NCBI RefSeq assembly: GCF_025452195.1
Contig: NZ_CP104972.1
Coordinates: 62,001-126,000 of the forward strand
Length of the DNA: 64,000 nucleotides
Direction of reading: 5' to 3'
Source: Phyllobacterium zundukense
GTDB lineage: Bacteria > Pseudomonadota > Alphaproteobacteria > Rhizobiales > Rhizobiaceae
The notes below the pieces were generated by a model, which was not told the origin of the DNA, did no database searches, and saw only the letters and a program-made list of their open reading frames with translations. Positions 39,533 to 63,771 of this stretch are shown piece by piece. Each line of letters starts with the position of its first letter. The stretch's first letter is position 1. The position numbers and the translations under genes are program-made.

Positions 39533-39554
39533 GTGGTATACACACGTATACCAC
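39533..39554. promoter_or_regulatory. TATAC-N4-GTATA box A
   Basis: Perfect inverted repeat GTGGTATAC (39533-39541) / GTATACCAC (39546-39554) with 4-base spacer ACAC. This is the longest of five boxes with core TATAC-N4-GTATA. It lies about 65 bp before a strong ribosome site and 164 bp before the PF03640 gene, in very A+T-rich promoter-like sequence. Confidence 0.75.
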
Positions 39555-39617
39555 TAATATACCTTGTGCTGATTTATTATTAATATTGCAGTATATTATA
39601 ACATAGGAGGATTATCC

Positions 39618-39653
39618 GTGTACAATGCGGCGATCTATTCTACAAACCCATAA
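39618..39653 (+). CDS. Possible 11-residue leader peptide
   Basis: A GTG at 39618 lies 7 bp after AGGAGG (39605-39610), the best ribosome site in this region. It opens a frame of 11 codons (reading YNAAIYSTNP after the start) before TAA at 39651. The real downstream gene starts 65 bp later with its own weaker site. It may be a leader peptide or a chance frame; no attenuator structure was worked out. Confidence 0.3.
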   Translation: MYNAAIYSTNP

Positions 39654-39717
39654 CGTTGCCTGGGAGCAGCCTGCATTTTCGCTACCTTGGACGGAAAGAG
39701 CGACCGAAAGGACCAAT

Positions 39718-40110
39718 ATGTCGAGAAATATAATGACTTCCATGCTCGCCCTCAGCCTCGCCTTAAGTGCGTCTTCAATGGCGTATGCAGATATGGCGGC
39801 ACCTGCCAGGGTAATAATGCACGGACAGACAAAGATCCTAACCGACGCCCGTGGTTGGTCGCTCTACACTTTCGACGAAGACCAGCCTGGGAAGTCTGAG
39901 TGCACTCTCCTTTGTGCTACCGCGTGGCCGCCATTTGAGGCCCCTGCGAGCGCACGGGCCTCTGGACATTGGAGCCTGATCCGGCGCTCAAGCGGTGTTC
40001 TTCAGTGGGCTTACAAGGGTTCTCCGCTTTACACATACCGCTTGGACTTTAAGCCCGGCGAAATTCGGGGGGATGGAGCTGAGGGTATCTGGCATCTTGC
40101 CAAGCCATAA
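39718..40110 (+). CDS. Small secreted protein with PF03640 (COG4315) repeats
   Basis: This 130-residue protein has a Sec signal (MSRNIMTSMLALSLALSASSMAYA) and two PF03640-type repeats: GWSLYTFDEDQPGKSEC followed by CATAWPPFEA, and WAYKGSPLYTYRLDFKPGE with GIWHLAKP. The YxFxxD/WPP pattern is typical of this periplasmic family of unknown function. No lipobox is seen. The ATG at 39718 follows GAAAGGA; a frame from 39625 would hide the signal peptide. Box A upstream ties it to the putative regulon. Confidence 0.85.
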   Translation: MSRNIMTSMLALSLALSASSMAYADMAAPARVIMHGQTKILTDARGWSLYTFDEDQPGKSECTLLCATAWPPFEAPASARASGHWSLIRRSSGVLQWAYKGSPLYTYRLDFKPGEIRGDGAEGIWHLAKP

Positions 40111-40913
40111 AACCAGCGTAGAGCGGCAGTTACCGGCTGCCATGCCTTTCACATTCAACGCATCCAGATCATTGCTGCGGCGAGGTGCGTGAAGCTTAGA
40201 AAGTAGATGGCGCGTCTGTCGTCGTGTTGCGATGCGACGGGAGTCGCTTGAGCTTAATGAAGGCAACAGTCCATCCGATTTCTGGCTCTATAGGCTTTAC
40301 CCAACTGCAGGATTGGCGGGTGCCCTCGACAGGAAAGCCAATTTGGCCCATCCGTCTGCGTACTGCGTTGCTTGCCGTGGCTACATTGGAACAGGAAGGG
40401 CAATATGTTGGAAACGCTTCAAGATCTCACCCTAGGGTAGATCGGAACCGATTTGGAGAACTCGCCGCTAGGATCCTCGGTCAATATCGAGCTGCGAAAC
40501 GAATCTCACCGTGCAGGAAATTTGAGAATTATGGTGTCTCAGATACACTGACGAGGAGTGAACGTTCCACCCGGATACTGCCTCGCCTCGGTCGATCCCC
40601 CCAGTCACGCTCGCTGAAAGTCTCCTAATTCGGCGTTGTACAGATTTGGCAGACAGCTACAACTGCTCGTTTGAAAATGCCGGCAAGGGCAGGTTTTCGT
40701 CGACTTCGATTGCTGCCTTAGGGTCTACAATTCGTCTGCGACTCAGGAAAAACGGCGTCAACGATCGCCTTGAACGGAGCCGAACTCAGACCCACTCATT
40801 AAATCACCGCATTTACTGACGTGAGGATGCTTCCGAGCATCAGGAAGCGCGAATAGCATTGTAGAACCAAGACAGCTCATACTCCTGAGCGTCAACATCG
40901 CCAGAGCTGTTAC
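40111..40913. other. 800-bp region without an intact gene
   Basis: Holds an IS5-type transposase remnant near 40155-40290; the rest shows no convincing reading frame, ribosome site or RNA. Probably eroded mobile DNA next to the fdhF-like gene. Confidence 0.5.
40155..40290 (-). pseudogene. IS5-family transposase C-terminal remnant
   Basis: On the minus strand three short frames together read FIKLKRL, RRIATR and DRRAIYFLSFTHLAAAMIWMR followed by a stop (TGA at 40157-40155). RRIATRYDK...FL..LAAAMIW is the usual end of IS5-type transposases. At least two frameshifts separate the pieces, so it is an old relic. Confidence 0.5.
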
Positions 40914-43220
40914 TCAGTCCGGTGTCGCAAGCCTGATGCGGATGGGAATCGACTTGAACCCAGGGGTTCCCGAGCGGCGGTCGTAGTGCGACAATGCAAT
41001 CAAGCCGTTCATTTCCGGGTAGTATCCGGCAGCGGACCCGCTTGGGATATCGTACTCGATCGCAGTGAGGCGGCGAACCAGCCGTGGGCGGTCATCAATC
41101 TCGGCAGAATTTCTGGCTGCTTCGACGTCAAGGATATCGCCGTCAGCCAACCCTCTGCTGGCGAGATCATCCCCGTTGAGAAAGATGACATCGCGTCTCC
41201 CGAACACGCCTCTGTAGCGATCATCCATGCCGTAGATCGTAGTGTTATACTGATCATGACTGCGAATAGTCGTCAATGTGAGAAGATCAGAATCCGAAAG
41301 CTCCGGATCTTCATCAAGGCTTTCGGCGACCAAAAACTGGGCTTTTTTAGCCGGGGTGTGCCAATCACGGTTAGAAGCTGGCACGCTCAGGCGAAACCCG
41401 CCGGGCTGCCTTATCCTCTCGTTGAAGTCATGGAAGTCGGGAAAGACGACCTCAATCTTGTCGCGTATCCTGTCGTAGTTTTCGATCATTGCATCCCACT
41501 CTATCCCGTGCCGGTTGCCAAGGGTGGCCTTGGCCATGCCGGCAATTACAGCCGGTTCCGAGCGCACCAGGTCGCTGGGCGGTTTCAAAAAACCTCGCGA
41601 TGCATGGACCATCGACATTGAGTCTTCGACAGTGACTGATTGTGGACCCGTCGCTTGAATATCCACATCGGTGCGGCCCAGAACCGGTAGTATGATCAAC
41701 GTTTTCGCCGTCAGCAGATGTGACCGGTTGAGCTTGGTCGTAAGGTGAACCGCCAGATCCAGCTTTCGCATGCCAGCGAAAGTGGCGTCAGGATCCGACA
41801 TCGCCACTGCGAGATTTCCGCCGAGGCAGATGAGTGCTTTTGATCGCCCATCCTGGATAGCTTCGATCGCCTCCACAGCGCTGTGACCTTTTTCCGCGAC
41901 CGGACGAAAGCCGAAGGCGCGTTCCATACCATCCAGCAACGCAGCGTTGGGCGCTTCGGTGATACCTACGGTGCGATCACCTTGAACATTCGAATGACCT
42001 CGTAACGGGCATATGCCGGCACCCTGACGCCCGATGTTCCCGCGCAACATTAGAAGATTGGCGATTTGCTGCACATTGGAGGTGCCATTCCTGTGCTGCG
42101 TGATCCCCATTCCGTAGCAGAGAATGACATTCCCAGCTTTTAAATAAACGTCGCCCGCACTTTCAATTGCTGTTTGTGTGAGACCGGAGATCGCCTCGAT
42201 CTGATCCCAGGGTGTGCCATCGATGTCTGTTCGCAAGGCATCGATGCCATCCGTGTGCTCGGCGATAAAGCTGCGATCGAGCATACCGCTTCCGCCGTTC
42301 TCTATCTCCTCTCTGTCGCGCTGGAAAATTCGCTTCATCATTCCCTTCAGTACTGCAACATCGCCTCCCGGGCGCACCTGGTGATAGGCCGAGGCAATCT
42401 CCGTCGATGACAGAGTTGCCATCTCGACGGCACTTTGGGGAGAAGCAAATCGCTCAAGCGCCCGCTCCTTGAGGGGATTGAAGACGACTATCGGAACGCC
42501 GCGCTTTGCGGCTTCACGCAATGTCGTCATCATGCGTGGATGATTCGTACCGGGATTGTGCCCGAAACTGAAGATCGCATCGGCATGATCGAAGTCTTCG
42601 AGGGTGACCGTGCCTTTGCCGACGCCGATCGACAGAGGGAGCCCGACGCTGGTCGCTTCGTGGCACATATTGGAACAATCGGGAAAATTGTTTGTCCCGT
42701 AAGCACGTACGAAAAGTTGAAAAAGGAAAGCGGCTTCATTTGAGGCCCTGCCCGAGGTGTAAAATTCGGCCATGCTTGGCTCGGGAAGTGCATTCAGCGC
42801 CTCGGCGATCGTTTGGAAGGCGACGTCCCATTCGATTTCCACATACGTGTCCAAGGACGCGTCATAGATCAGCGGATGGGTTAGCCGCCCCTGATTTTCG
42901 AGGTCATGATCATGCCAATCCCACAATTCTGAAACAGTGTGAGATGCAAAGAACGAAGGCATCAAACGTTTGGCAGTTGATTCCCACGTTACGGCCTTGG
43001 CACCATTTTCACAAAACTCAAACGACGATGTGTGCCGCGGATCAGGCCAGGCGCAGCCGGGACAGTCAAACCCATCGGGTTGATTAACCTTCAAGAGAGT
43101 CGCTGCGCCTTGAGCGACGATCTGCTGCCGCGATAGGCTTTCCGCCACCGCCTTCAACGCACCCCAGCCTCCGGCAGGTGCATCATATCTTTCAATTCCC
43201 TCGGGTCGTTTGCTGGCCAT
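40914..43220 (-). CDS. FdhF/YdeP-family molybdopterin oxidoreductase (formate-dehydrogenase-like)
   Basis: This 768-residue cytoplasmic protein of the formate dehydrogenase alpha family, YdeP branch, has the N-terminal FDCPGCAWPDP (Cys53, Cys56) and FCENGAKAVTWE (Cys70), EFYTSGRASNEAAF, CSNMCHEATSVGLPLSIGVGKG, FGHNPGTNHPRMM, and the bis-MGD-binding segments MLRGNIGRQGAGICPLRGHSN (cited in part: NIGRQGAGICPLRGHSN) and DQYNTTIYGMDDRYRGV. YdeP in E. coli is linked to acid resistance. As the last gene of dps-oxdC-focA-fdhF it could oxidise formate made from oxalate. The electron acceptor and real activity are inferred. Confidence 0.88.
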   Translation of the reverse strand: MASKRPEGIERYDAPAGGWGALKAVAESLSRQQIVAQGAATLLKVNQPDGFDCPGCAWPDPRHTSSFEFCENGAKAVTWESTAKRLMPSFFASHTVSELWDWHDHDLENQGRLTHPLIYDASLDTYVEIEWDVAFQTIAEALNALPEPSMAEFYTSGRASNEAAFLFQLFVRAYGTNNFPDCSNMCHEATSVGLPLSIGVGKGTVTLEDFDHADAIFSFGHNPGTNHPRMMTTLREAAKRGVPIVVFNPLKERALERFASPQSAVEMATLSSTEIASAYHQVRPGGDVAVLKGMMKRIFQRDREEIENGGSGMLDRSFIAEHTDGIDALRTDIDGTPWDQIEAISGLTQTAIESAGDVYLKAGNVILCYGMGITQHRNGTSNVQQIANLLMLRGNIGRQGAGICPLRGHSNVQGDRTVGITEAPNAALLDGMERAFGFRPVAEKGHSAVEAIEAIQDGRSKALICLGGNLAVAMSDPDATFAGMRKLDLAVHLTTKLNRSHLLTAKTLIILPVLGRTDVDIQATGPQSVTVEDSMSMVHASRGFLKPPSDLVRSEPAVIAGMAKATLGNRHGIEWDAMIENYDRIRDKIEVVFPDFHDFNERIRQPGGFRLSVPASNRDWHTPAKKAQFLVAESLDEDPELSDSDLLTLTTIRSHDQYNTTIYGMDDRYRGVFGRRDVIFLNGDDLASRGLADGDILDVEAARNSAEIDDRPRLVRRLTAIEYDIPSGSAAGYYPEMNGLIALSHYDRRSGTPGFKSIPIRIRLATPD

Positions 43221-43257
43221 GTCAAATTCGCTTTCAAACTATGTTGATAAGGTATGT

Positions 43258-44082
43258 TCAGCCGATCCTGCTGACCGGGGGAAGCGTCCGGCTCTTGGCC
43301 AGCGGAGACGCCGCCTGCGCAGCGCCTGCGAGTTGCACCCAATATCCGAAGGCCACCATGATCCCGCCGCCGACGATGTTGCCCAGAGTGACGAATACCA
43401 GATTGTGTAAAGCGCCATATACACTAATGCTTGCCGGATGAGGGCCGAGGAGCGCTAACGAAAAAGCGAACATGTTTGCCACGCAGTGCTCGAAACCGGC
43501 AGCAACGAAAATCATGATTGGCCAAAAGATCAAAAAGACTTTCGCAGCATCGTTTTCGGTTCGATAAGACATCCAGATCGCGAGGCAAACGAGCCAGTTG
43601 CATATGATGCCCCGGGCAAAAAGCTCGTGAGCCGGGGCACTGATTTTCGCCGCAACCGCTGCAAAGAATGCCGGACTGCCGTCGCCGAGCAGGACACCTC
43701 CGCCGCCAAGTTTAAAAAGCACGGCAAGCAAGAAAGCTCCTGCGAAATTGCCCAGCCAGCAAAGTATCCAAACACGCAGGAGATCGATCAAACCAGCTTT
43801 GCCGCTCAGAAGCGCAAGCGGCATATACATGGCCATACCGGTGAAAAGTTCAGATCCGGCAAAGACGACGATCGTGAGTGCCGAGGCGAAAACAGCACCC
43901 ATTACAAGATGGCTCCACGAAGGGTCCGCATGAGCGCCCACGGTGAACATGATGATATCGCCAAAGCCAATATATGCACCCGCCATCGCCGAACCGACCA
44001 CGAATGCAAACGGATTACCCGTTAGTGCGACGGACTTGGACCTGCCCGCATCCGAAAGTTTTTTGATTGCTTCTTCGTACAT
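43258..44082 (-). CDS. Formate/nitrite transporter family channel (FocA/NirC-like)
   Basis: This 274-residue pentameric membrane channel subunit has about six helices: GNPFAFVVGSAMAGAYIGFGDI, SALTIVVFAGSELFTGMAMYM, WLGNFAGAF, and GIICNWLVCLAIWMSYRT, GFEHCVANMFAF, LHNLVFVTLGNIVGGG, which include the family's omega loop and pore His (in GFEHCVAN). Start ATG 44082 (YEEAIKKL); a longer form opens at 44106. It lies between the oxalate decarboxylase and the formate-dehydrogenase-like gene, which argues for formate as substrate, though NirC-type nitrite transport cannot be excluded. Confidence 0.87.
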   Translation of the reverse strand: MYEEAIKKLSDAGRSKSVALTGNPFAFVVGSAMAGAYIGFGDIIMFTVGAHADPSWSHLVMGAVFASALTIVVFAGSELFTGMAMYMPLALLSGKAGLIDLLRVWILCWLGNFAGAFLLAVLFKLGGGGVLLGDGSPAFFAAVAAKISAPAHELFARGIICNWLVCLAIWMSYRTENDAAKVFLIFWPIMIFVAAGFEHCVANMFAFSLALLGPHPASISVYGALHNLVFVTLGNIVGGGIMVAFGYWVQLAGAAQAASPLAKSRTLPPVSRIG

Positions 44083-44169
44083 GGCAGTTTTCCTATGGAA
44101 TAGCATCAGTTTGGATGTATTTCGGCGCTGCCGTTGCGTAACGCCAGCCGATGGCGAAGAACAGCTTAG

Positions 44170-45390
44170 CTAAACGGAACTCACGACTGGCTGCTTGTTT
44201 GGTTTCAAAGCCTTCATAGTCGCAGTATCGAAACCCAGGTGCCCGGAAACGAGTTCTGGCGGAGTTAATGCCAACCATTGATTGAGAGACACGTCCGCAT
44301 AGTGATCGCTTTTGAACATTTCGAGGAACACGAGCGGTTCATCACCGGTGTTTTCGACGTAATGTCCCATGGCGAATGGCACATATCCGACGTCGCCAGC
44401 TGCGAAATCAAAGGTGCGGGAGGCGCCGTTGGCTGCAAACACACCCATTCGTCCAACTCCTTGAATGTAGTATTGCCATTCATCGGTGTTTGGGTGCCAG
44501 TGCAACTCTCGCATGCCCCCCGGCTCGATTTCCACAAGCGCTGCGGCAATCGTTTTGGACGCGGGGAAATTCCGGGAGTCGGTTATGCGAACGGTGCCGC
44601 CCGCAGAGCTTATCGGAGTTTGTGAAGTCATTCGGTGGACGAACCCGTTTGGAACCGTTGTCGCACCCGCGATCCTGTCGCTGTCAAGATTGCCTGGGAC
44701 AGGGAGATTGAAGATATAGCGGTCACTTGGAGAGGGGAGATTATCGAAGCTTGCTGCAGGCACGCCGAAATTCTTTGCAAGAATAGTTTTGGGGACGTGC
44801 TTGAACCAGTCGCTCAGCAGGAACGTGCTGTCCTCATCAAATCCGCCATCGTCGAAAACCAGCAGAAACTCACACCCGTCGGGTCCAAGCCCCTGGATGG
44901 AGTGCGGTGTACCGGATGGAAAGTACCAGATATCACCAGGACCAAGATCGCCGACGAAATTCCTGCCATCGGGATCGACAGCCGTAACTCTGGCATTTCC
45001 ATAAAGTATGTACGCCCATTCACCTTCTTTGTGCCAGTGCAACTCACGAACGCCGCCGGCGTTCAGCCGCATATCAACACCGGCTATGCTCTTGGATATT
45101 CCAAGTTCCCGCTTGGTGATTTGACGGGTCCAGCCTGCAGGGTATTGTTTCGTCGGCGCATCGGCGAACGAGAAGCGAAGGTTGGGCAAGGTTCCAGCGT
45201 CGGTAGCCGGTGGATTGAGAATATCTGGATTCTGGATGTCCCGATCAAGGTTGCGCGGCCCAGGATCGTCGCCGCCAACGCGGGAACTTTGCGGTTGGGG
45301 CAGGCCTGCGGCATAACTCGTGGAACCTGCGGCTACCAAGCTTCCTGCAGACAACGCCAGGAGCGCCTCACGACGGCTAAAAGCATTCAT
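44170..45390 (-). CDS. oxdC: Oxalate decarboxylase, bicupin, exported
   Basis: The 406-residue protein has a twin-arginine-like signal ([19 protein letters not shown], AxA site near SYAAG). Cupin 1 has [11 protein letters not shown] (His118, His120, Glu124) and PHSI (His163); cupin 2 has [12 protein letters not shown] (His297, His299, Glu304) and GHYVEN (His343): a complete set of Mn ligands twice. The active-site lid reads DEDST (185-189), corresponding to SENST in Bacillus OxdC, keeping the catalytic Glu that separates decarboxylase from oxidase. It converts oxalate to formate and CO2 with uptake of a proton. ATG at 45390 overlaps the dps stop (ATGA). Confidence 0.92.
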
Positions 45391-45956
45391 TTCATCAGCC
45401 TTTCTGATACTGTCATTGACATCTGCAATGCCGCAGCTGGTGTCGGGATTGACCTGAGATGCGCACGCCATGCTTCAACGAGGAACCAGGTTCGGCCATC
45501 GGCCTCGTCGATCCAGGTCTCGAAATAGTCAGCCGTCTCAAAATCCCGGTGCACGTCACAGACATCGCGAGTAGAGCGCAGGAATGAAGAGAGCTGTCTG
45601 TTGTCGCTGGCGAGTTCGGTCAACATCTCTGCGGGAGTAAGGCAATCGGCGTCGTTGTCGGCAAGTCTTTGAAGTCGCCCGATACGGCCAATCGAATGGA
45701 GCGTCGTGCCTCCGAGCTCGCGTATGCGTTGCGCGATAACATCTGTGATGGAAAGTATCTGCTCGGCTTGCTCGTCTAGCAGTGGCTGGAAAATACCAAA
45801 ACCCGTTGGAGCCATGTGCCAATGGAAACTTTTCGTCTTTAGGTACAACGCGAACGTATCCGCGAGCAGGATCATCAGGGCTTGCGAAACCTCGGCCGCA
45901 GTGTCGCCTGAATAGAACGGCTTCACACGGTTACCAGTATAAATTGACAGGCTCAT
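45387..45956 (-). CDS. dps: Dps-family ferritin-like DNA-protection protein
   Basis: This 189-residue ferritin-like four-helix protein has the Dps ferroxidase motif [26 protein letters not shown], cited in two parts ([27 protein letters not shown]), with the His and Asp/Glu ligands shared between subunits. The canonical FxxLH is replaced by FQPLL. It would bind DNA and oxidise/store iron under stress. First gene of a four-gene operon; box B lies about 103 bp upstream. Confidence 0.9.
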
Positions 45957-46058
45957 TCAACGACCCTTTCCTGTTCCACGTAGTGTCATGGCTGATTGTT
46001 GTATCGAGCCTAGGCCAAGCCTTCCTGTCGTGACAGTGGATACTCGTTTCGATTAAGT

Positions 46059-46072
46059 TATACTTGAGTATA
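46059..46072. promoter_or_regulatory. TATAC-N4-GTATA box B, between dps operon and sensor kinase
   Basis: TATAC (46059-46063) TTGA GTATA (46068-46072). It lies in the divergent space, 103 bp from the dps start and about 160 bp from the kinase start, so one site could control both the stress operon and the two-component system (autoregulation). Confidence 0.75.
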
Positions 46073-46232
46073 GGGGGTGAATTTTACCGCCGGTGGGGTG
46101 TTAGCGTGCGCGAGGCGAGCAGCAACACCGTTGCCATTCACGGAAATTAGCGACATTGCGCCACTTAAGATTGTGCAGCCTTGCAGCCGATCTGTTATAG
46201 CCCGATCGGGTTGGCTATTTGGGATAGTTCGC

Positions 46233-47744
46233 ATGGCGAGATTTTCACCGCTGGCTGCAGCAATCATTGCTGTGGCGGTTTTCCTTCTGGACACTCTGAC
46301 GACGTTTGACATCGCCATTGCCGTTCTCTACGTCGTCGTCGTGTTGCTTTCGCTCAATTTCGCCAGGAAATTCCAGCTTCTGGCGATTGGGGCCGGCTGC
46401 ATGGGGCTGACGCTCCTCAGCTTCTTGCTGTCGCATGGACAGGAACTCCCGGCTGACTCCATTGGACGTTGCTTTGTCAGCCTTGCTGCAATCGGGATAA
46501 CAACCTTTCTTGCTTTCAGGGTAAAAGCAGCGATCGGAGTTTTAGCCGATAGCGAGCAGCGTTACAGGTCCATATTTCTGGCTACAGGCGTTGGAATTCT
46601 CCAGATGGACTTCACGGGGTTAAAAAATGCGTTCGACAGGTTTAAGTCCGATAATGTGCAACGCATCGAGGATATTGAACGCCTGGATCCCGGATTCGCC
46701 CGCAGCGCACTAAGACTGATCAAGCTGACCAATGCCAACAACACTGCCCTGAACATGTTCAACGCTCCAGATGTAGGCGCTCTAGATCAGCTGCTGCCGA
46801 CACTCGTTAGCGAGGACATGGAGGGGAAAGTATGGAAGTTGCTTGCTTCAATATGGGCTGGAAATCAGAGTTATGAAGCCGAAGCTATTTTAAAGACATC
46901 GGACGGGCGCCAGCTGATTTTTCTTTATAATGTAGCAGTACCGCTCGATCGCCCTGCTCTCGACATGGTCTTGATCAGCATAATGGACGTTACAGCACGA
47001 AGAGAAGCCGAGAATGAACTGGATGTGGCGCGAAGTCAGTTGGCGCATGTAGCCCGCATAGCGACCCTTGGAGAACTGACGGTATCGATCGCACATGAAC
47101 TCAACCAGCCTTTGGCAGCCGTGGTCACCAACGGAGGAGCTGGCCTGCGTTGGCTCAAGAGGGATGTGCCGGATTTGACGAAAGTGCAGTCGTCGATGGA
47201 ATCTATGATCGCCGACGCTACCCGCGCCAGCGACGTCATCAAGCATTTGCGCGGGTTGTCGGTAAAGGCGTCACCAAACCCGATGAATGTTGATTTGAAT
47301 GAGATTATCGAGGAAACAGTCACGCTGCTGCAGCGCGAAATCGATATCAACCAGGTGACTTTAAGGGTGGATCTTGCAGCCGGTCTACCGAAGGTCATCG
47401 GCGATCGTGTGCAACTGCAGCAAGTTGTCCTAAATCTTCTGTTGAACGCTATCCAGGCGATGGCGCATGTCGCGCAAGGACAACGAGAACTCCTGGTGAA
47501 GTCCTCGGAAGAGGAAAGTGCCATCATGTTCAGCGTCCATGATACCGGTCCCGGCATTCCTCTTGAGGTCCGCGACAACCTCTTCAACCCGTTTTACACA
47601 ACGAAGCAGGACGGTATGGGCATGGGTTTGTCAATATGTCGTTCGATTTTGACCGCGCACGGCGGGAGCATAAGTGCCAGTTCCGAACCGGGAGCAGGCA
47701 CCACGTTCGAATTCACCATTCCATTCAACAGGGAGGTCGGATGA
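46233..47744 (+). CDS. Membrane sensor histidine kinase, FixL/NtrB-like
   Basis: The product (503 aa from the ATG at 46233) has four N-terminal hydrophobic helices (about 5-95), a PAS-like domain (about 105-250), a HisKA domain with His288 in SIAHELNQPLAAVV and an ATPase domain (LLNAIQAM, DTGPGIPLEV, GMGMGLSICRSI). No haem-binding FixL histidine could be assigned, so the signal is unknown. A longer frame opens at 46077. It is coupled to the next response regulator by an ATGA overlap. Divergent from the dps-oxdC-focA-fdhF operon, which it most likely controls. Confidence 0.87.
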   Translation: MARFSPLAAAIIAVAVFLLDTLTTFDIAIAVLYVVVVLLSLNFARKFQLLAIGAGCMGLTLLSFLLSHGQELPADSIGRCFVSLAAIGITTFLAFRVKAAIGVLADSEQRYRSIFLATGVGILQMDFTGLKNAFDRFKSDNVQRIEDIERLDPGFARSALRLIKLTNANNTALNMFNAPDVGALDQLLPTLVSEDMEGKVWKLLASIWAGNQSYEAEAILKTSDGRQLIFLYNVAVPLDRPALDMVLISIMDVTARREAENELDVARSQLAHVARIATLGELTVSIAHELNQPLAAVVTNGGAGLRWLKRDVPDLTKVQSSMESMIADATRASDVIKHLRGLSVKASPNPMNVDLNEIIEETVTLLQREIDINQVTLRVDLAAGLPKVIGDRVQLQQVVLNLLLNAIQAMAHVAQGQRELLVKSSEEESAIMFSVHDTGPGIPLEVRDNLFNPFYTTKQDGMGMGLSICRSILTAHGGSISASSEPGAGTTFEFTIPFNREVG

Positions 47745-48373
47745 TGGCCGGACTCACAACGCCAATTGTCTTTATAGTTGATGATGACCAGCATTTGCGA
47801 GAAGCGCTGGGCAATCTTTTCGCATCTGTCGGCATGCGCGTGGAACTGTTTGGCTCCACGTCGGAACTCCTTGCCCGCCCTGCCAAGATTTCCGCCGAAA
47901 GCTGCCTTGTTCTCGATATTCGGCTGCCAGGCGTCAGCGGCCTTGATTTCCAGAATCAACTCGCGAAACTAGGGAACAATATTCCCATCATCTTCATGAC
48001 GGGCCACGGTGACGTTCCGATGTCGGTACGCGCGATGAAGGCAGGTGCGATTGACTTTCTAACCAAGCCGTTCCGGGACCAGGATATGCTTGATGCGGTC
48101 GCCAATGCGTTGACCCTGGATCGAGCTCGCCGGGCCAGCGATGACGCGCTGTCTGCACTGATGGCGCGGTATGAAAGTCTGACGGCTCGCGAGCGTGAGG
48201 TGATTGCCCTGGTAACCAGCGGCCTGATGAACAAGCAAATTGCGGGTAAGCTTGGTGTGAGCGAGATAACAGTTAAAATCCACCGCGGTCATCTGATGGA
48301 AAAAATGGCTGTTCGAACCCTTGCGGAACTGGTCAAGGCTTATGAGGCGCTTCGGCCAGTTTTGAACAAGTGA
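47741..48373 (+). CDS. FixJ-like response regulator (receiver plus LuxR helix-turn-helix)
   Basis: The 210-residue regulator has a receiver domain (VDDDQHLREAL, phospho-acceptor Asp59 in LVLDIRLPG, Lys109 in LTKPF) and a C-terminal GerE/LuxR-type helix-turn-helix (LTAREREVIALVTSG, KQIAGKLGVSEITVKIHRG). The FixJ/StyR/TodT group binds inverted repeats with 4-bp spacing, so the TATAC-N4-GTATA boxes are plausible targets. The start ATG (47741) has GGGAGG and overlaps the kinase stop. The C-terminus is nearly identical to that of a second regulator at the right edge. Confidence 0.92.
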   Translation: MMAGLTTPIVFIVDDDQHLREALGNLFASVGMRVELFGSTSELLARPAKISAESCLVLDIRLPGVSGLDFQNQLAKLGNNIPIIFMTGHGDVPMSVRAMKAGAIDFLTKPFRDQDMLDAVANALTLDRARRASDDALSALMARYESLTAREREVIALVTSGLMNKQIAGKLGVSEITVKIHRGHLMEKMAVRTLAELVKAYEALRPVLNK

Positions 48374-48462
48374 TGCCGGAACCTAAACATGAGTATGATA
48401 TCTTCTGGTCTCTGGGTGGTGCATTTGATCTAGAAACAGTCACATATTTTAGAAGGTTGCTG

Positions 48463-48831
48463 GTGTACCGTTCGAAATCCATAGCCGTCGTCGAGGACGA
48501 CGCGTCGCTGCGCGACGCCATGGAGAATCTCATAAGCTCACATGGGCTCAATGTTTATACGTTTGTTTCCGCGGAATCATTTCTGGCCCAGAGGGATCAT
48601 ATAGAGATCGACTGCCTTATAACCGACGTGCAAATGGACGGAATGGGCGGGGTGGAGCTATTCCATATCCTCCTCAAAATTGGTGTCGTTACTCCAGTCA
48701 TTTTCATTACGGCGTTCGAGGATGAACGAATTCACAAGAGGGTGATGGCCTCAGGCGCCAAGGGCTACTTCCGGAAACCTTTCGAAAGTCAGGCCATGAT
48801 TGATTGCATAGATCAGGCACTGGCTATGTAG
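48463..48831 (+). CDS. Single-domain receiver protein (CheY-like, FixJ-type)
   Basis: This is a receiver-only protein of 122 aa from the GTG at 48463 (AGAAGG at 48451-48456), with VVEDDASLRDAM, Asp55 in LITDVQMDG, T/S in FITAFED and Lys105 in FRKPF. No output domain follows: stop at 48831. A longer frame opens at 48370 directly overlapping the FixJ-like gene, but its first 31 residues do not look like receiver sequence. It may be a phosphate sink or antagonist for the neighbouring kinase, as FixT-like or receiver-only proteins do. Function is inferred. Confidence 0.8.
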   Translation: MYRSKSIAVVEDDASLRDAMENLISSHGLNVYTFVSAESFLAQRDHIEIDCLITDVQMDGMGGVELFHILLKIGVVTPVIFITAFEDERIHKRVMASGAKGYFRKPFESQAMIDCIDQALAM

Positions 48832-48985
48832 CCGTCGATCACGGAACGTTCGTGATAAGTTGCTCGGCCGGTTTATCAATCCGGGTATCAAATGCGAAAT
48901 CGCCCCCGGACGCACCTGGAGCGATTTTGTACCTGACGGGTACCATGCCTCATGATCGCGAGGCACAGCTTGTTCGACGCATGGA

Positions 48986-54134: not shown

Positions 54135-54465
54135 ATCTACTGGAAACCCCAATTGTGTACGAAAGGCGAAAGGTGGAAGGGAAGATTTCCTTCGGCCGGA
54201 GCATCTGTCACTGACGGGTGACGGTGTTAGACTACTTAGTTCGCAATGCATGCTCCATCATACGAACGTGGACGGGTATTATTCGCTCGTCTGATCGTTT
54301 CATACTTTGGTTTTGGTTGTGTCAGCTGCCAACCAACCCATTTAAACAATGGGGAATGAGCGCGCCTTGATGCGTATCCGCATTCTGTCCTGTGCACGAG
54401 TTCCCGCGAAGTATCATCTGAACCTGACGGCTTGCGAAAGGGCGTCGCCAAAAATGGAGCAAGAA

Positions 54466-54711
54466 ATGCGCTCTTTGGTCCTCACAACTACGTTCGCGGC
54501 AGTATGTCTGTCCGTTCAACCTCCCCTAGCCTTGCCTGGTCCGCAAGACAGCCATCCGTTAAAGAACGAGAGGGCTCTGCGACACATCGAGCCGCAAGTC
54601 GTCGGTCATACCAAGCCCGCTTTGTCCATCGACGCGAACTCACTCCCCGCATATTTGGCAACACTGCATAGACTTCACTTCACTGACGGGCATATCGAAC
54701 CTCAGGATTGA
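54466..54711 (+). CDS. Small exported protein of unknown function
   Basis: The 81-residue product (ATG at 54466, GGAG 6 bp before it) begins with a likely Sec signal (MRSLVLTTTFAAVCLSVQPP, cleavage near LALPG). The short mature part has no recognised domain. It lies 66 bp upstream of the second efflux adaptor and divergent from the first pump, so it may be co-expressed with the mdtA-like gene. Possibly a chance frame, but signal peptide and ribosome site argue against it. Confidence 0.55.
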   Translation: MRSLVLTTTFAAVCLSVQPPLALPGPQDSHPLKNERALRHIEPQVVGHTKPALSIDANSLPAYLATLHRLHFTDGHIEPQD

Positions 54712-54776
54712 GTCGGGATCTCTTCGCCTCTAGCGCGAAGGATTGCTGCAATGGCCTCCTCGAGTTGGAGCACAAG

Positions 54777-58900: not shown

Positions 58901-59056
58901 CGACAGCCACTGGGATATGCAATGGTTGGAGGCCTCATATTGAGTCAGGCAATGACACTCTATACTACGCCGGTTGTCTACCTTTACCTCGACAGATTGA
59001 GCCTCTGGATATCTGGGCGGCGCAACAGGGCGCGGGCGATCGATGTCCAGGATTGA
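55946..59056 (+). CDS. RND efflux pump inner-membrane subunit, MdtB/MdtC-like
   Basis: This 1036-residue pump has start motif SISHWFIQRPIATSLLMLGI (MdtB/C type), LPVAPLPQVDFPTIQVSTQLPGAS (cited in part: LPQVDFPTIQV), helix-4 Asp pair in SIAVGFVVDDAIVMLEN, and RFRPIMMTTMAAILSGVPLML near the C-terminus. It exports detergents or related compounds; in E. coli MdtBC heterodimers need two pumps, here only one is present with its adaptor. No TolC-type gene nearby. Confidence 0.92.
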   Translation: MMSISHWFIQRPIATSLLMLGILAIGLATYPLLPVAPLPQVDFPTIQVSTQLPGASPQTMASSVTQPLERQFGEISGVTQMTSVSTLGSSSITLQFQLDRNIDGAAQDVQTAINAAGGQLPSNLPAPPTYRKVNPADPPILVLALTSDTLPLTQIDDFAENVLVQHISQVSGVAQVSVFGQQKPAVRVQVDPRKIADLGLSLEDIRSAIIATTTDAPKGSIQGALRTYTLYDNDQLLAAGPWNDAIIAYRNGAPIRISDIGQAIDAPENTQIAAWADGKPAILLPISKLPGANVIETVDQIKALLPELKAIAPHALHISSLSDRTTTIRASVLDVKFTLLLTIALVITVIFVFLRNVWATSIPAVTVPLALIGTFALMYVLGFSLDNLSLMGLSIAVGFVVDDAIVMLENIQRHMEDGKSALEAAIDGSKEIGFTIISISLSLVAVFIPILFLGGIVGRLFHEFAITVTVTIAVSALVSLTLTPVMCARFLKNEHSIKHGRLFLISERAFDALLSGYRTTLDIALHHHRVTFGIFLLTLVATGYLFVSIPKGFFPIQDTGLITGLLQGAQDTSFADMARHQVEIGKVVASDPGVASVGMAVGGGSGNTLNTGRMFITLKPQDQRDATASQIIQRLRPKVAQIEGVKLFLQPAQDINVGGRSTATQFQYTLQDGDANELNDWAPKLLAKLSTLPELTDVATDQQSNGATVTLDIDRDQAARFGISPQTIDDTLDDAFGQRQVTQYFTDLNSYHVILELPPKAQSSPQAIDGLYIKSPLTGAQVPLNVLVKQSTQPTTVLAINHQSQFPSVTLSFNLAPGVALSQAVSAIHGSEADLGVPPTLIATFQGNAQAYQTSLSSEPLLVLAALAVIYIILGVLYESYVHPLTILSTLPSAGLGALIMLWSFGFDFTVIALIGVILLIGIVKKNGIMIVDFAIAAEREHGLRPEEAIRQACLLRFRPIMMTTMAAILSGVPLMLGHGTGSELRQPLGYAMVGGLILSQAMTLYTTPVVYLYLDRLSLWISGRRNRARAIDVQD

Positions 59057-59230
59057 TTTCTGCCTGGGCTGGCATGTTTTGGCAGGTGCAGAATCGTTGG
59101 ATCCGATACGGAGAGCCCCTAACTTTCATCGCGGCCATTAAGCGAGCGAAGGAACCAAGGATGATCGTTGTAAAAGGGGATGAATTGCTTACCGTTCACC
59201 TGGCATAGCTTCCCATCAACAGGGAGCTTG

Positions 59231-59535
59231 TTCAAAGGTCGCCATTTCGACCGAACGTGATTCCGTTACGCTGGTACCTGGCTTACAACCTCAGACTGCG
59301 CGATCTCGAAGAAACGACTGCTTGAGCGTTGACCATTTCCCTTGTCCATTGCTGGCTTATCCATTTCGCGCCAAAGTTGCTCGAGCGCTTCAATCGGCGC
59401 AAACGCGCCGTTACCGGCAAAGGGCACGTCGATGAGACCTATGTCAAGGTTCGCAGTCAATGGATGTACTTGTATCGTGCAATCGACAGCGTTGCGGGAC
59501 ACTGTTGAGTTCTTCCGGCGCTGCTAGAAAGAAGA
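59231..59535 (+). pseudogene. IS6-family transposase remnant
   Basis: Fragments read FKGRHFD, then VIPLRWYLAYNLRLRDLEE, then WLIHFAPKLLERFNRRKRAVTG (in part) and HVDETYVKVRSQWMYLYRAID, and finally DTVEFFRRC. These are the ordered blocks of an IS6/IS26-type transposase, including the DETY catalytic motif, broken by at least two frameshifts and an in-frame stop. No complete ends were found. Confidence 0.8.
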
Positions 59536-59709
59536 CCAACCCGTCGCGGGCGCGCCCAGTGTCTTGCGCGGGAAGGCTCCTCCCTCGCGGAAAATGACGA
59601 TATAGAAGGCAAACACCGTCGCTGCTCCAAAGAATAGGCTGACCGTGAGGCTCACCGTTTCCACACCAACGCCTGCTGAGAACGCATAGAGCGGATTGCG
59701 TGCGATCAT
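59524..59709 (-). pseudogene. PEMT/ICMT-like methyltransferase fragment
   Basis: MIARNPLYAFSAGVGVETVS and FREGGAFPRKTLGAP match the core of small membrane methyltransferases (RNPLY, EE.FL.....GAPY). The N-terminal half is missing and the C-terminus is cut by the IS6 remnant. It also lacks the usual glutamate pair (GG in place of EE), so it should be inactive. Confidence 0.55.
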
Positions 59710-59828
59710 TTTCCATCCGCGGTGCCAGACTTCAGAACGGTTGCCTGATCTTTGTTTCGTGCGAGTTCTGGCTGTCGGGCACGGGAGAATGCGAGTAGGC
59801 GTCCCCGATCCACTCACACTCTGCGACG

Positions 59829-60605
59829 CTAGGTGCGTCCAGTTGCTTCAAGGATAAGTTTCGTGATCTCGTCGGGTTTTGAGATCAACGACAAATGGCT
59901 CGCCTTCACTTCAATCGTCTTGGCTCCCATGCGTTTAGCCATGAAACGCTCTAAATCCGGATTTATCGTACGATCTTCTGTTGAGACAGCGTAGAAGCTC
60001 GGCTTGGAACGCCACGCCGCTTGGGAAGTCCGGCCAGTCAGGAGAGCTTTCTGGAATGGCTGCTGCACTGCATAAAGCACCCGCGATCTTGCTTCAGGCA
60101 GGTCGCCGGCAAAATCACGCAGGAACGCAGCTTCACTCAAGCGCCCCTCGTCACCATTGAAAACTATGCCGGCTGTAGCCGGGGGCGTTGCGAAAGTCTT
60201 GGCGAGCGCGGAATAGTCCTCGCCAGCGTCTGGCCCCCTCGCCGCAACATACACGAGCGCCGAAACGTTAGGATGCACGCCGGCCTCTGTCACGATCATT
60301 CCCGCAAACGAGTGTCCCACAAGGACCGTCGGGCCGTCCTGCAGTGCCAGCACCCGCTGGGTGGATGCCACGGCTTCTGGTAACGTCGTCAAGGGGTTTT
60401 GAACGGCCGTGGCGTTGAGTCCGGCCGCTTGGAGGCGAGCAATCACCTCCGACCAGCACGATCCATCTGCGAACAAACCATGGACGAGAACGACGTTGCG
60501 AGCCGGAATGGGGGATGGCTTCGCTGCCATGCCGCGGGAGGAAATCAACGATGCAGCACCGGCAACCAGGGTAGCCGAGAACATCCGTCTGTTCATCATC
60601 ATCAT
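59829..60605 (-). CDS. Alpha/beta hydrolase, exported
   Basis: This 258-residue serine hydrolase has an N-terminal signal with a twin-arginine-like start (NRRMFSATLVAGAASLISS, cleavage MAAK), oxyanion loop VVLVHGLFADGSCWSEV, nucleophile elbow GHSFAG, acid residue near STEDRTINPD and catalytic His in KASHLSLISKP. Related proteins include the EstC/pyrethroid-hydrolase group; substrate unknown. Start at the first of four Met codons (60605) after GAGAGGA. Box C is 70 bp upstream. Confidence 0.87.
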   Translation of the reverse strand: MMMMNRRMFSATLVAGAASLISSRGMAAKPSPIPARNVVLVHGLFADGSCWSEVIARLQAAGLNATAVQNPLTTLPEAVASTQRVLALQDGPTVLVGHSFAGMIVTEAGVHPNVSALVYVAARGPDAGEDYSALAKTFATPPATAGIVFNGDEGRLSEAAFLRDFAGDLPEARSRVLYAVQQPFQKALLTGRTSQAAWRSKPSFYAVSTEDRTINPDLERFMAKRMGAKTIEVKASHLSLISKPDEITKLILEATGRT

Positions 60606-60674
60606 ATATTCCTCTCTATTGTGTTTGATATGAGTATTCTTGGTAATTACCGTTTGAGCAGATCATTTTCGATT

Positions 60675-60688
60675 ATACATGAGTATAG
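60675..60688. promoter_or_regulatory. TATAC-N4-GTATA box C
   Basis: TATAC (60675-60679) ATGA GTATA (60684-60688), 70 bp upstream of the alpha/beta hydrolase start. No gene starts to the right within 200 bp, so the hydrolase is the probable target. Confidence 0.72.
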
Positions 60689-60933
60689 CCGTGACAAGGT
60701 TGGCGGGAGCTGGCCCCAGATGGTCATGCCCTTCGCGCTCTACGCGATGCGACATGCGGCGCGCTGGTAAATCCGGATCAAGGACGAAGTTGGTTCACCC
60801 TCACATCGAATGTGGCGGGAGCTTCCTCAACAAATTATGAGAAGGCTTTCGGCGGGAGCGGCGGATAGGCAAATATGATGATTATAAAAAGCCCAGCCAA
60901 GTTGAAAGACTTGGTAACCGCGCTTCGCTTGCA
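60689..60933. other. Short gap between hydrolase promoter and methyltransferase end
   Basis: 245 bp with no supported gene. It holds the weak terminator described separately and a partly purine-rich stretch. Confidence 0.4.
60886..60914 (-). terminator. Probable terminator of PKS-methyltransferase operon
   Basis: On the minus strand CCAAGT (60914-60909) pairs with ACTTGG (60902-60897), followed after 5-6 bases by TTTTT (complement of 60890-60886). The gap between stem and T-run makes it weak. Confidence 0.45.
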
Positions 60934-61440
60934 TCAGTGCCTTGCATCATGGCGCAACTCCGAAAGCGCGGCATTCTCTTCGCGAACCCTTACCGCCAGA
61001 ACGAAGGCATTCAGCGCGGAGAATGCGAGAGCATACCATATCAGCCCAAAGCACAAGGGCAGCACGGCGATCTCTCCGATCACGACGACATAGTTGGGAT
61101 GCGAAAGAAAGCGGTAGGGGCCCGTTCTGACGAGCGGGCTTCCCGGCAGAACGATAATGCGCGTGGTCCAGCGCTTGCCCAAGGTCCCGAGCACCCAGAA
61201 CCGCAAGCCTTGAAGCAATATGAAAACGGCAAGCCATCCGGGTTCAATCGGCTTGTCCCAGGCAAGAACCCACAAGCCGGCAAGCCAGGCGGCATGCAAC
61301 GCCACGATGAACACATAATGACCCGGCGCCGCCTCATAGGCTCCCTTCGCCAGCAGGGCTTTGGTGTTATGTCTGGCGAGCAGGAGTTCGCCAAGACGCT
61401 CGATAGTGACGAAAGCGAGAAGCGTGGAAGCCGCGATCAT
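60934..61440 (-). CDS. Isoprenylcysteine carboxyl methyltransferase-family protein, probable polyketide O-methyltransferase
   Basis: This 168-residue membrane protein has about four helices and the ICMT-family end: GPYRFLSHPNYVVVIGEIAVLPL and VRVREENAAL. The family uses S-adenosylmethionine at the membrane surface. Its ATG (61440) overlaps the stop of the type III PKS gene by 4 bp, so the two are translationally coupled. In Streptomyces, SrsB of this family methylates alkylresorcinols made by a type III PKS; the same job is inferred here. Confidence 0.82.
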   Translation of the reverse strand: MIAASTLLAFVTIERLGELLLARHNTKALLAKGAYEAAPGHYVFIVALHAAWLAGLWVLAWDKPIEPGWLAVFILLQGLRFWVLGTLGKRWTTRIIVLPGSPLVRTGPYRFLSHPNYVVVIGEIAVLPLCFGLIWYALAFSALNAFVLAVRVREENAALSELRHDARH

Positions 61441-62489
61441 GCGGCTCTCGTGAGTGAAACACAGCTGACGCTGAAGCCCGGGCCCATCGCTGTCAGCAAT
61501 GTGCGGGATGGCAAACCCGGCTCGGCGACGCGGTCGAGAACGAACAGCGCCGTGGGGGCCGACATATTTCCATATTCGGATAACACATCCCGTTCATGGT
61601 CCAGGCTGCCTTGACCAAGGGAAAGCGCAGTCTCCAAGGCAGTCACGACTTTGGCGCCGCCGGGATGACAGGCAAATCTATCGATATCCGCAAGTTCCAA
61701 ATCCGCGCGTCCGAGGATTCCGGAAATCGCCGGGGCGATGCGCTCTTCGGCAAAAGGTGGAATATCGCGATCGAAAATGACGCCGAAACCTTGTCTGTCA
61801 ACACTCCAGCCCATTATGTCCAGCGTGCCGGGCCAGGTGTGCTGGCCCGACATCTCGACAGCGGCAAGTCCCTCATTTGCAACCTTCAGGACGCATGCCG
61901 CCGCGCCGTCCCCGAAAAGCGCGCTGGCAACGATATTGGCTTTTGTCAGTTGATCCAACCGGAACGCCAATGTGCACAGTTCAACAGCGACCAGCAGGAC
62001 GACGGTTCCAGGTCTTGACTGCGCAAGCCGGGAGGCAATGGAAAAACCGGATACACCGCCCGCACAGCCCAGACCGAAAACAGGCACGCGTTCAATATCA
62101 TCGCGAAATCCCATTTGCTGGGCGACACGGGCTTCCAGACTTGGCGTGGCAATACCCGTTGACGACACCGTCACGACCGTATCGACGTCCTTGCCCCTGA
62201 TGCCTGCCTTCTCCAGGGCAGCATTGGCAGCGGAGGCGAACAAACTGCACGCTCCTTCAATATAAGCGGCATTTCTTTCCGGCCACCCCAAAGGCTCCAG
62301 ATACCATTCGAGCGGCTGGACAGCGTAGCGCGTGCGAATGCCGGAACTCTCGAAGACTTTCGCCAAACGGTCAAAGTCTCTGAACCGGGCCGAAAAAGCC
62401 TGATGTGCCGCAGCGGCGGCGTCACGTTGTTGAATGATGTGGGCAGGCACTGCTGTGCCTATTGATATCAGTTTCACGGATTGAGACAT
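61437..62489 (-). CDS. Type III polyketide synthase (chalcone-synthase superfamily)
   Basis: This 350-residue thiolase-fold enzyme has the complete catalytic triad: Cys142 in FGLGCAGGVSGFS, His275 in FACHPGGAK and Asn308 in YGNMSAPT, and the GPGFS loop at the end. It condenses an acyl-CoA starter with malonyl-CoA units to pyrones or resorcinols. The ATG at 62489 follows AAGGAG; a frame opening at 62561 adds non-family residues. First gene of a two-gene operon with the methyltransferase. Product probably a phenolic lipid or alkylpyrone; the starter cannot be read. Confidence 0.9.
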   Translation of the reverse strand: MSQSVKLISIGTAVPAHIIQQRDAAAAAHQAFSARFRDFDRLAKVFESSGIRTRYAVQPLEWYLEPLGWPERNAAYIEGACSLFASAANAALEKAGIRGKDVDTVVTVSSTGIATPSLEARVAQQMGFRDDIERVPVFGLGCAGGVSGFSIASRLAQSRPGTVVLLVAVELCTLAFRLDQLTKANIVASALFGDGAAACVLKVANEGLAAVEMSGQHTWPGTLDIMGWSVDRQGFGVIFDRDIPPFAEERIAPAISGILGRADLELADIDRFACHPGGAKVVTALETALSLGQGSLDHERDVLSEYGNMSAPTALFVLDRVAEPGLPSRTLLTAMGPGFSVSCVSLTRAA

Positions 62490-62950
62490 CGACACTCCTT
62501 GGTGACCTTTCTGCAATCGACGCGGGCACAAGTGCTGCCACGAGGACCCAGCAGGACACATCTCTTCAACAACACTTGACCGGTACGGTTATTCGGCATG
62601 TCTACTTAAAAGTGGGAAGCATCCGGTCTGGCGAAGTATCTTCAACATAGGATCAGTATGATGATCTTCGTATTATACGTTGGTTTAGCGCGCATAACTG
62701 TATTTGATCCCAGGCATTGGACGGTATTCGAAAATCAAGCAAACGCGCTTCGCAGACCGGTGGCCACCACGGACGGGGTATTGACGTCGATTGGAGGTGG
62801 CTGCCGGAGCTCTCAGCCCCTGTGGCAACCGAAGCATCCGTCACCCGGATTGAACGGATAGATAGTTTGAGCTGCACATTCACGATCGCGAGGTTCAAAT
62901 GCGCTGCATTTCCGGCCAGCAAATGTAAAATCGATTTTTCGTTTATGCCG
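62490..62950. other. 460-bp region upstream of the PKS gene
   Basis: No gene is supported. It must hold the PKS promoter. Short open frames on both strands show no ribosome site or family. Confidence 0.45.
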
Positions 62951-62968
62951 AGTATACCAACGTATACT
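62951..62968. promoter_or_regulatory. TATAC-N4-GTATA box D
   Basis: Perfect repeat AGTATAC (62951-62957) CAAC GTATACT (62962-62968). It lies about 40 bp before the likely start of the small RNA candidate to its right and about 460 bp from the PKS gene to its left. Confidence 0.75.
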
Positions 62969-62999
62969 TATGCATCGGGCAGTTTGGATGTATTTCTCA

Positions 63000-63135
63000 A
63001 ATTGCGCCCGTCATAAAGCTCGACGGGACTGGTAGTTCCCCCGGCTACCATACTTCGACGTTTCCGCCCGTTGAAGTGCGGCCATCCAGGCCCGCAAAAG
63101 ACCGTCCGAGCCCCCTCCGGACGGTCTTTTGTCTT
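63000..63135 (+). ncRNA. Candidate regulatory small RNA (about 130 nt)
   Basis: Downstream of box D, with TGTATT (62989-62994) as possible -10, lie three successive hairpins: CCCGTC/GACGGG (63007-63012, 63022-63027), TGGTAG/CTACCA (63030-63035, 63045-63050) with loop TTCCCCCGG, and a 13-bp terminator stem AAAAGACCGTCCG / CGGACGGTCTTTT (63096-63108, 63118-63130). The loops of the second and third carry C-runs that could pair with ribosome-binding sites, as in several alphaproteobacterial small RNAs. No protein frame with a ribosome site fills the region. Start point and function are inferred. Confidence 0.6.
63096..63130 (+). terminator. Strong rho-independent terminator (end of small RNA candidate)
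   Basis: Thirteen paired bases, AAAAGACCGTCCG (63096-63108) with CGGACGGTCTTTT (63118-63130), and a C-rich 9-base loop. No protein gene ends just upstream, which itself points to a non-coding transcript. Confidence 0.85.
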
Positions 63136-63203
63136 CTAGCTCTCAGCTTTACCGTTCACCTTCCCACATCGTTCGAGGCGTCCAATACCGGTCATGGCAC
63201 TAC

Positions 63204-63217
63204 TATACAAATGTATA
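63204..63217. promoter_or_regulatory. TATAC-N4-GTATA box E
   Basis: TATAC (63204-63208) AAAT GTATA (63213-63217), about 50 bp before the start of the small protein at 63266, followed by CATAAT as a possible -10. Confidence 0.72.
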
Positions 63218-63561: not shown

Positions 63562-63771
63562 ATGACAATGACAAATAGTCCAAAAGACAGAAAGGCATTG
63601 GCGACTGCGAGCCGGATGAAGGACCTTGAGCATAAAATCCACGCTCTGGAAGTTGATCTCGGCAGTGCGGTCGAAATCGCATACCTGCGCGGCGCTACCG
63701 AATGGGTCCGTATCAATTACCCATCCCACTACAAGCGGCTGCACATGCGATTTGACAGCTGCGCGGCTTGA
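63562..63771 (+). CDS. Small cytoplasmic protein, helical, unknown function
   Basis: The 69-residue product (ATG 63562 or 63568) contains a heptad-like helical stretch SRMKDLEHKIHALEVDLGSAVEIAYLRGA followed by TEWVRINYPSHYKRL; cited in parts, MKDLEHKIHALEVDLGSA is probably coiled coil. No family is recognised with certainty. It follows the preceding small protein after 56 bp and could be in the same transcript. Confidence 0.5.
   Translation: MTMTNSPKDRKALATASRMKDLEHKIHALEVDLGSAVEIAYLRGATEWVRINYPSHYKRLHMRFDSCAA

Follow-up and report, generated by a model that had tools for sequence, protein, structure and literature searches.

What are five copies of one 14-bp palindrome, TATAC-N4-GTATA, doing close together in the genome of the plant-associated bacterium Phyllobacterium zundukense? 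They lie in a stretch of 64,000 nucleotides (C4:62001-126000, hereafter the window) of the 990-kb contig C4, which makes up 15.4% of the genome. A preliminary description of the window had proposed that these boxes are operators of FixJ-like regulators and define one regulon. Our analyses agree with that proposal: we consider it probable, at roughly four chances in five, that the boxes serve as operators for a FixJ-type response regulator of the StyR branch, encoded in the window, together with its paralogues, the binding itself being predicted from sequence comparisons. The evidence comes from the linkage of box and regulator, rediscovery of the palindrome by a motif-blind search, conservation in orthologous promoters and the presence of boxes before relatives of the targets elsewhere. 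All five sites were found, the third starting at 60674 and not, as first given, at 60675:

39537..39550, unstranded, exact box TATACACACGTATA, before a PF03640 protein; same site and distance in genome G297 (L178:1209)
46059..46072, unstranded, exact box TATACTTGAGTATA, between dps and a kinase gene
60674..60687, unstranded, exact box TATACATGAGTATA, 68 bp before the start of a hydrolase gene
62953..62966, unstranded, exact box TATACCAACGTATA, before a small RNA (sRNA)
63204..63217, unstranded, exact box TATACAAATGTATA, 48 bp before the start of a small protein; kept exactly in G299 and G310 and with one mismatch in G300

Most boxes had been placed about 50-160 bp before a gene; the distances to the nearest start are 74 bases (PF03640 protein), 102 (dps), 68 (hydrolase) and 48 (small protein, start 63266), and the box at 62953 precedes the sRNA. 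The claim that all are intergenic holds with the small-protein start at 63266, as the 63204 box would fall within a frame begun at the ATG of position 63194. That longer frame aligns whole in G299 and G310 (tblastn); we took 63266 as the start because the ATG at 63194 reads AGG in G299 (by eye).

The number of exact sites in the window far exceeds that produced by its composition. In 100 dinucleotide-preserving shuffles the mean was 0.01 sites, and no shuffle had five or more (0/100). A whole-genome search, suggested in the preliminary description, covered 6,413,776 bases in five contigs and returned only the five window sites, with none in the reversed control. The clustering described earlier, in a 24-kb region, was also evident: all five sites fall within 23.7 kb of each other, for which the chance is about 2e-10 if places are uniform, and all are at most about 9 kb from one of two regulator genes, RR1 and RR2. 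No box within one mismatch was found between 46073 and 60673. The regulatory genes are:

46077..47744, plus strand, membrane histidine kinase HK1 (HATPase_c 4.7e-28), start codon uncertain
47744..48373, plus strand, FixJ/StyR-type response regulator RR1 (Response_reg and GerE domains)
48370..48831, plus strand, single-domain receiver protein (PF00072 1.8e-22), third gene of the regulatory operon
63877..64000, minus strand, C-terminal end of RR2, a second FixJ-type regulator whose gene passes the window end (L006:1877-2611)

The two regulators had been said to have near-identical DNA-binding ends, and 63 of their last 67 residues agree (by eye), with the recognition helix TVKIHRGHLMEKM in both. 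A second kinase-regulator pair lies just beyond the window (L006:1877-4131) and a third elsewhere on C4 (regulator C4:711057-711665, 86% identical to RR1). The closest relatives of RR1 in our named collection are from Phyllobacterium, and its nearest solved structure is StyR (1yio, 3.7e-60), with FixJ (5xso) at 3.4e-37. HK1 has hydrophobic windows between residues 50 and 146, which predict membrane segments; its best named models, AtoS and FixL, scored far below cut-off, and EvgS was absent among the 25 best matches listed. The single-domain receiver gene adjoins the regulator gene in many relatives. A relaxed site, GAAACAAACGTATA at 48556-48569, lies inside this receiver gene, and similar sites occur near RR1 in G297 (C35:12181) and G300 (C4:1024903), perhaps only through coding conservation.

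The resemblance to StyR extends to the operator. According to PMC5874301, StyR-like regulators may recognise ATAAACN4GTTTAT, and K175, V176 and H179 of StyR are putative DNA contacts; PMC2442086 puts the StyR site STY2 at "about -40 bp". RR1 is like StyR and TodT in combining a receiver with a GerE helix-turn-helix, in the N4 spacing of its presumed inverted repeat and in the position of the box, near -43 (see below). The analogy with these regulators drawn in the preliminary description, which rested on the same 4-bp spacing, is thus supported, with StyR as the nearest solved relative. The left arm AAAC of box variants is the half-site of ATAAAC-N4-GTTTAT. Unlike that operator, however, the boxes have the arms AWAC/GTATA, with a preference for ATAC/GTAT over AAAC/GTTT, and the RR1 recognition helix differs from that of StyR by V176I and H179G. 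The neighbours of RR1 are also stress and small-protein genes and not, as for StyR and TodT, genes of aromatic catabolism.

The co-occurrence of motif and regulator in related genomes, another check suggested earlier, was examined in 20 Phyllobacterium genomes, in which a regulator gene was counted at 70% identity or more and a site was considered near within 25 kb. Seventeen regulator genes were counted, including a 137-residue match with an internal stop in G305 and a 147-residue match in G308; a 101-residue fragment in G299 was excluded. These genomes have 40 exact sites, 22 of which (counted by hand) are near a regulator gene, in DNA that constitutes at most 0.8% of the total; one of the 22, in G303, qualifies only via the circularity of its plasmid contig. 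Away from regulator genes there were 0.6 exact sites per genome in the ten regulator-positive genomes versus 1.2 in the ten regulator-negative ones. The box as a general operator of the whole family was rejected, with an exact site in 92 of 297 family genomes and counts of mostly 0-3. A 2.6-Mb genome of another genus, G056, has eight exact sites, with none in its control.

A further view came from 80 kinase loci, of which 77 were scored and three were too short in the 300 bp upstream of the kinase. Every arm with spacers of 0-12 was scored against its dinucleotide expectation, with no motif supplied. With four-base arms, ATAC-N4-GTAT ranked first (17 of 77 loci, expected 0.05), and did so again after removal of the ten closest loci (12 of 67, expected 0.04). 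The loci are mutually related, so tail probabilities should not be taken literally and it is the comparison with two control regions that counts; the best palindromes there were much weaker. The 17 loci come from Phyllobacterium, Rhizobium, Bosea, Azorhizobium, Ancylobacter, Kaistia, Xanthobacter, a Xanthobacteraceae strain, a Rhodospirillaceae strain and one metagenome bin. When arms of five bases were scored, TATAC-N4 led over all 77 loci (6 loci). An earlier count of exact five-base-arm palindromes over 1 kb upstream had GC-rich words at the top and TATAC-N4 eleventh (6 of 80 loci); the composition-corrected 300-bp test is the more informative of the two.

Which genes would such a regulator control? 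Gene boundaries below were taken from open frames and family matches:

39625..40110, plus strand, PF03640 secreted-repeat protein (Pfam 6e-23), predicted target
40914..43220, minus strand, FdhF/YdeP-family molybdopterin oxidoreductase (TIGR01701 931 bits, cut-off 582)
43258..44106, minus strand, formate/nitrite-family (FNT) channel, focA (PF01226 9.9e-68)
44170..45471, minus strand, bicupin oxalate decarboxylase, oxdC (TIGR03404 549 bits, cut-off 254)
45387..45956, minus strand, Dps/ferritin-like protein, first gene of the operon (PF00210 3.2e-19)
59829..60605, minus strand, alpha/beta hydrolase (PF12697 6.5e-23), predicted target
60934..61440, minus strand, ICMT-family methyltransferase (PF04140 8.1e-26), downstream of the polyketide synthase
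61437..62561, minus strand, type III polyketide synthase (PKS; PF00195 1e-23), predicted target of a variant box
62674..62687, minus strand, variant box TAAACCAACGTATA, before the PKS gene
63003..63132, plus strand, structured sRNA with C-rich hairpin loops and a terminator hairpin, its 5' end inferred
63266..63505, plus strand, 79-residue small protein, apparently secreted, predicted target; frame kept in G299 and G310 at 69-70%
63562..63771, plus strand, family B small protein (GATEWVRxNYP); 18 copies in 6 of 19 Phyllobacterium genomes

The gene first called fdhF is better described as an FdhF/YdeP-family oxidoreductase, as it exceeds the TIGR01701 cut-off; against the YdeP model NF007406 it scored 974 bits, below the cut-off of 1473. 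Pfam searches gave no match for the 79-residue protein and none above cut-off for the family B protein. Between 49719 and 59056, beside the kinase operon, are two divergent RND efflux systems, an arrangement that recurs in G297 and G300.

Several of these promoters retain their box in other genomes. The hydrolase box recurs without mismatch and at a similar distance in G297 and G300, with a changed N4 in G300, and has one mismatch in G299; the PKS gene, which has the variant box at 62674, is preceded by TAAACCAATGTATA in G300. Genes like oxdC (E up to 1e-60) were present in all ten regulator-positive Phyllobacterium genomes and in none of the ten regulator-negative ones, and seven of the ten have an exact box 211-602 nt upstream, with dps intervening in five. 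Two distant copies (46% identical) have AATAC-N4-GTATG upstream. At L276 and L277 two degenerate sites stand exactly 22 bp apart, 312-336 nt upstream of distant oxdC copies, the same spacing as in the dps promoter. The oxdC match of G300 (C4:1028009-1029307, L270) contains one internal TGA.

The box at 46059 stands between the dps operon and HK1, and in L048-L051, L057, G297 and G308 an exact box likewise separates the kinase from dps or oxdC. In L053, L054, L056 and G303 the oxdC/focA operon is kilobases from the kinase, and the exact box precedes the operon; the 2.6 kb upstream of the regulator gene in L053, L054 and L056 contained no site within one mismatch, and neither did the 11.8-kb kinase-bearing stretch of G303 (L185). 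The box thus stays with the operon where the kinase is apart, and in Phyllobacterium the operon, not the kinase, is therefore the likely target. Of the regulon membership first proposed, then, the dps-oxdC-focA operon is strengthened and the kinase is doubtful in this genus, autoregulation there being weakly supported. In several other genera the box lies directly before the kinase. The window's other genes vary between loci, and the kinase-regulator pair is the common element.

Promoter layout was examined in 12 promoters of the P. zundukense genome, excluding that of dps, by a weighted TATAAT score at each position. The score was highest at 23-25 nt past the box and had smaller peaks at 29-32 and 2, and the height of the main peak was reached anywhere in 5 of 1000 single-base shuffles; seven of the 12 promoters belong to three paralogue families and are not independent, and the weighted score was chosen after a positional count of TAnnnT hexamers proved uninformative. 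A TATAAT peak at this distance would put the box near -43, so a class II activator position is supported for most target promoters examined, and from this position we infer activation and not repression. The dps promoter would have two sites, as follows:

46007..46012, minus strand, putative -10 element TAGGCT of the dps operon (by eye)
46037..46050, minus strand, putative second, degenerate site with half-site GAAAC, 22 bp downstream of the dps box

A TAG-type hexamer is at the matching place in most relatives compared (TAATTT in G308), and all 10 of the dps/oxdC/focA promoters compared have a half-site [TG]AAAC at this offset from the box (by eye). In the dps operon and its relatives the full box would be 22 bp further up, near -65, and the half-site near -43, which is the box position of the other promoters.

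The sRNA and family B extend the predicted regulon to genes of a different kind. Folding of 63011-63132 gave a z-score of -5.41, and across the 12 copies compared both sides had changed in 5 of 41 predicted pairs; Rfam had no match at gathering, with one weak match to RNAI (E 1.9). The 12 copies occur in 6 of 19 Phyllobacterium genomes, and all of them are preceded by a site within one mismatch (four exact), 21-28 nt before the base that corresponds to 62990. Among the 18 family B copies, the 450 nt upstream contain a site within one mismatch for 13 and within two for four more, although two-mismatch sites in 450 nt are weak, with about 0.2 expected per promoter by chance (estimated for equal base frequencies). 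Three copies have an exact box 359-360 nt off, before the small gene that precedes them. A database search with a method that needs shared five-residue words found at least eight family B proteins. The genomes with both sRNA and family B (6 of the 19 searched) are the six with RR1 at 90% identity or more.

Variant sites suggest that the regulon is not confined to the window. We inspected 20 of the 46 one-mismatch sites of the genome, namely all 17 on C4 and three on C5. Eleven of the C4 sites precede relatives of targets. Small Gly/His-rich proteins that appear to carry a signal peptide account for four, at 69-78 bp (two of these proteins agree over the 70 residues compared); family B proteins, sRNA copies and copies of a PoxB-like gene (NF006591 690 bits, cut-off 792) account for two each, and the PKS for one. 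A twelfth is the partner of one of these at a distance of 64 bp; the other five on C4 and the three inspected on C5 had no clear target assignment. The sites before relatives of targets ruled out a regulon restricted to the 24-kb region or the window, and the regulon looks larger than earlier proposed, with variant sites over C4. Two variant boxes 64 bp apart (L006:10487 and 10551) stand before a Gly/His-rich protein, and contig 37 of G297 has a matching pair with the same spacers. The PoxB-like gene and an sRNA-DUF3455 segment each occur twice on C4 at 98-99% identity, boxes included, in a changed arrangement (L174:7395-9268 and 9539-10463; L175:4099-5971 and 13648-14571).

Across the genome the relaxed pattern BAWAC-N4-GTATA matches at 28 distinct places (33 strand hits), of which 22 are on C4 (17 of 23 without the five exact sites); its N5 version has 10 places, one on C4. 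Strand hits number 23-33 in each of the six genomes whose RR1 reaches at least 90% identity and 6-21 in the other 14, with no clear difference in the reversed control (averages of 29.8 vs 26.9).

A number of observations weigh against the boxes being operators of RR1 and its paralogues. One-mismatch sites as a class are not enriched genome-wide, with 51 places (the five exact sites included) versus 81 in the reversed control. The total for BAWAC-N4-GTATA is likewise little above its control (28 strand hits). What stands out is how many of its places are on C4, a contig that the pattern favours, having been defined in part from sites there. Boxes within one target family are not independent, as the copies share ancestry. 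In the motif-blind search the core palindrome was missing from 60 of the 77 kinase loci, and with five-base arms TATAC-N4 was outside the top five among the 67 distant loci, the outer base being mostly C. By a crude open reading frame caller, 11 of the 17 upstream sites fall within a putative frame; many such frames in these GC-rich genomes are likely spurious. No site within two mismatches was found for one oxdC-like copy (L275) or in the 450 nt upstream of one family B copy (L211), and 20 kb of the locus L055 (also L183), whose regulator is about 82% identical, contained no box within one mismatch. Lastly, K175 is kept in RR1 and two of the three named StyR contact residues are changed.

These changed residues would suit another transcription factor, encoded elsewhere, that controls the two-component genes together with the other targets, and the frequent position of the box before the kinase itself in distant genera would fit such an external regulator. 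We nevertheless regard this as improbable: exact sites follow the presence of the regulator gene across the genus, the kinase-regulator pair is common to loci whose other matches to window genes vary, and the N4 spacing and AAAC half-site suit relatives of StyR. Several sites precede paralogues, and two are in segments with a second C4 copy at 98-99% identity, so the boxes might be taken for leftovers of duplicated promoter segments or of mobile repeats on C4, with no common regulator. It would then be surprising that the promoters of dps, the hydrolase, the PF03640 protein, the PKS and the sRNA have the box in common and not the flanks (by eye), and that the arms are kept while N4 varies between orthologues, for example before the hydrolase and oxdC/focA; we give this explanation very little credence. 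Perfect inverted repeats could also act as RNA hairpins or terminators, but a stem of this kind, with five pairs that are mostly A-U closing a four-base loop, would be expected to be weak, the sites are at conserved distances before genes, and the variants change the left arm and keep the right arm GTATA, unlike a stem. This last explanation strikes us as the most remote of the three.

If the boxes are operators of RR1 and its paralogues, a pathway can be outlined. The kinase, with its predicted membrane segments, would phosphorylate the regulator, as its family suggests, and a regulator dimer would bind AWAC-N4-GTATA. The predicted targets are the dps-oxdC-FNT channel-ydeP operon, the alpha/beta hydrolase, the PF03640 protein, the type III PKS, the PoxB-like enzyme, the sRNA with C-rich loops and the small-protein families. 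Speculatively, the sRNA would repress translation through these loops. PMC3927594 describes the rhizobial sRNAs SmelA075 and SmelA099 as having CCUCCUCCC anti-Shine-Dalgarno loops; the window sRNA is like them in its several hairpins with C-rich loops and, unlike those described there, its loops are not CCUCCUCCC.

The predicted targets resemble those of the EvgS/EvgA system in joining a YdeP-family oxidoreductase with oxalate decarboxylation genes, with the difference that the oxalate decarboxylase here is a bicupin and not the YfdW/YfdU pair. RR1 is likened to EvgA by targets, its nearest solved relatives being StyR and FixJ. EvgA is of the same LuxR-type regulator class, and its operator differs from the TATAC-N4-GTATA box. 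According to PMC3720670 and PMC4283999, YdeP and oxalate decarboxylation come under the one two-component regulator EvgA in Escherichia coli; the former suggests that YdeP could oxidise formate, and the latter thinks a classic formate dehydrogenase role unlikely. Because the two functions are joined under EvgA, acid stress is our first guess for the signal, at slightly less than even odds, with oxalate or oxidative stress as alternatives. Protection from acid and oxidative stress, in which oxalate decarboxylation would consume protons, is a tentative proposal for the purpose of the system, about which we remain slightly more doubtful than confident. We lean a little towards a broader view in which three paralogous kinase-regulator pairs on the 990-kb replicon, with a shifted helix and operator (AAAC to ATAC), would run a largely replicon-bound stress programme whose output comprises enzymes, a multi-copy sRNA with C-rich loops and two undescribed small-protein families.

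A search of the open-licence literature on FixJ and oxalate decarboxylase and on Phyllobacterium two-component regulons returned no description of this system, which is weak evidence of absence. If our reading is correct, an operator would be assigned to this branch of regulators, for the first time as far as the literature searched shows, and the change in operator would be paired with a change in the recognition helix. It would offer a testable operator for the FixJ-type branch that neighbours genes for Dps or oxalate decarboxylase-like proteins in Phyllobacterium, Rhizobium, Bosea, Azorhizobium, Ancylobacter and Kaistia, and it predicts targets, the sRNA and the small proteins, that no annotation would connect. 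On the broader view above, proton-consuming oxalate decarboxylation would be coupled to the control of translation by an sRNA.

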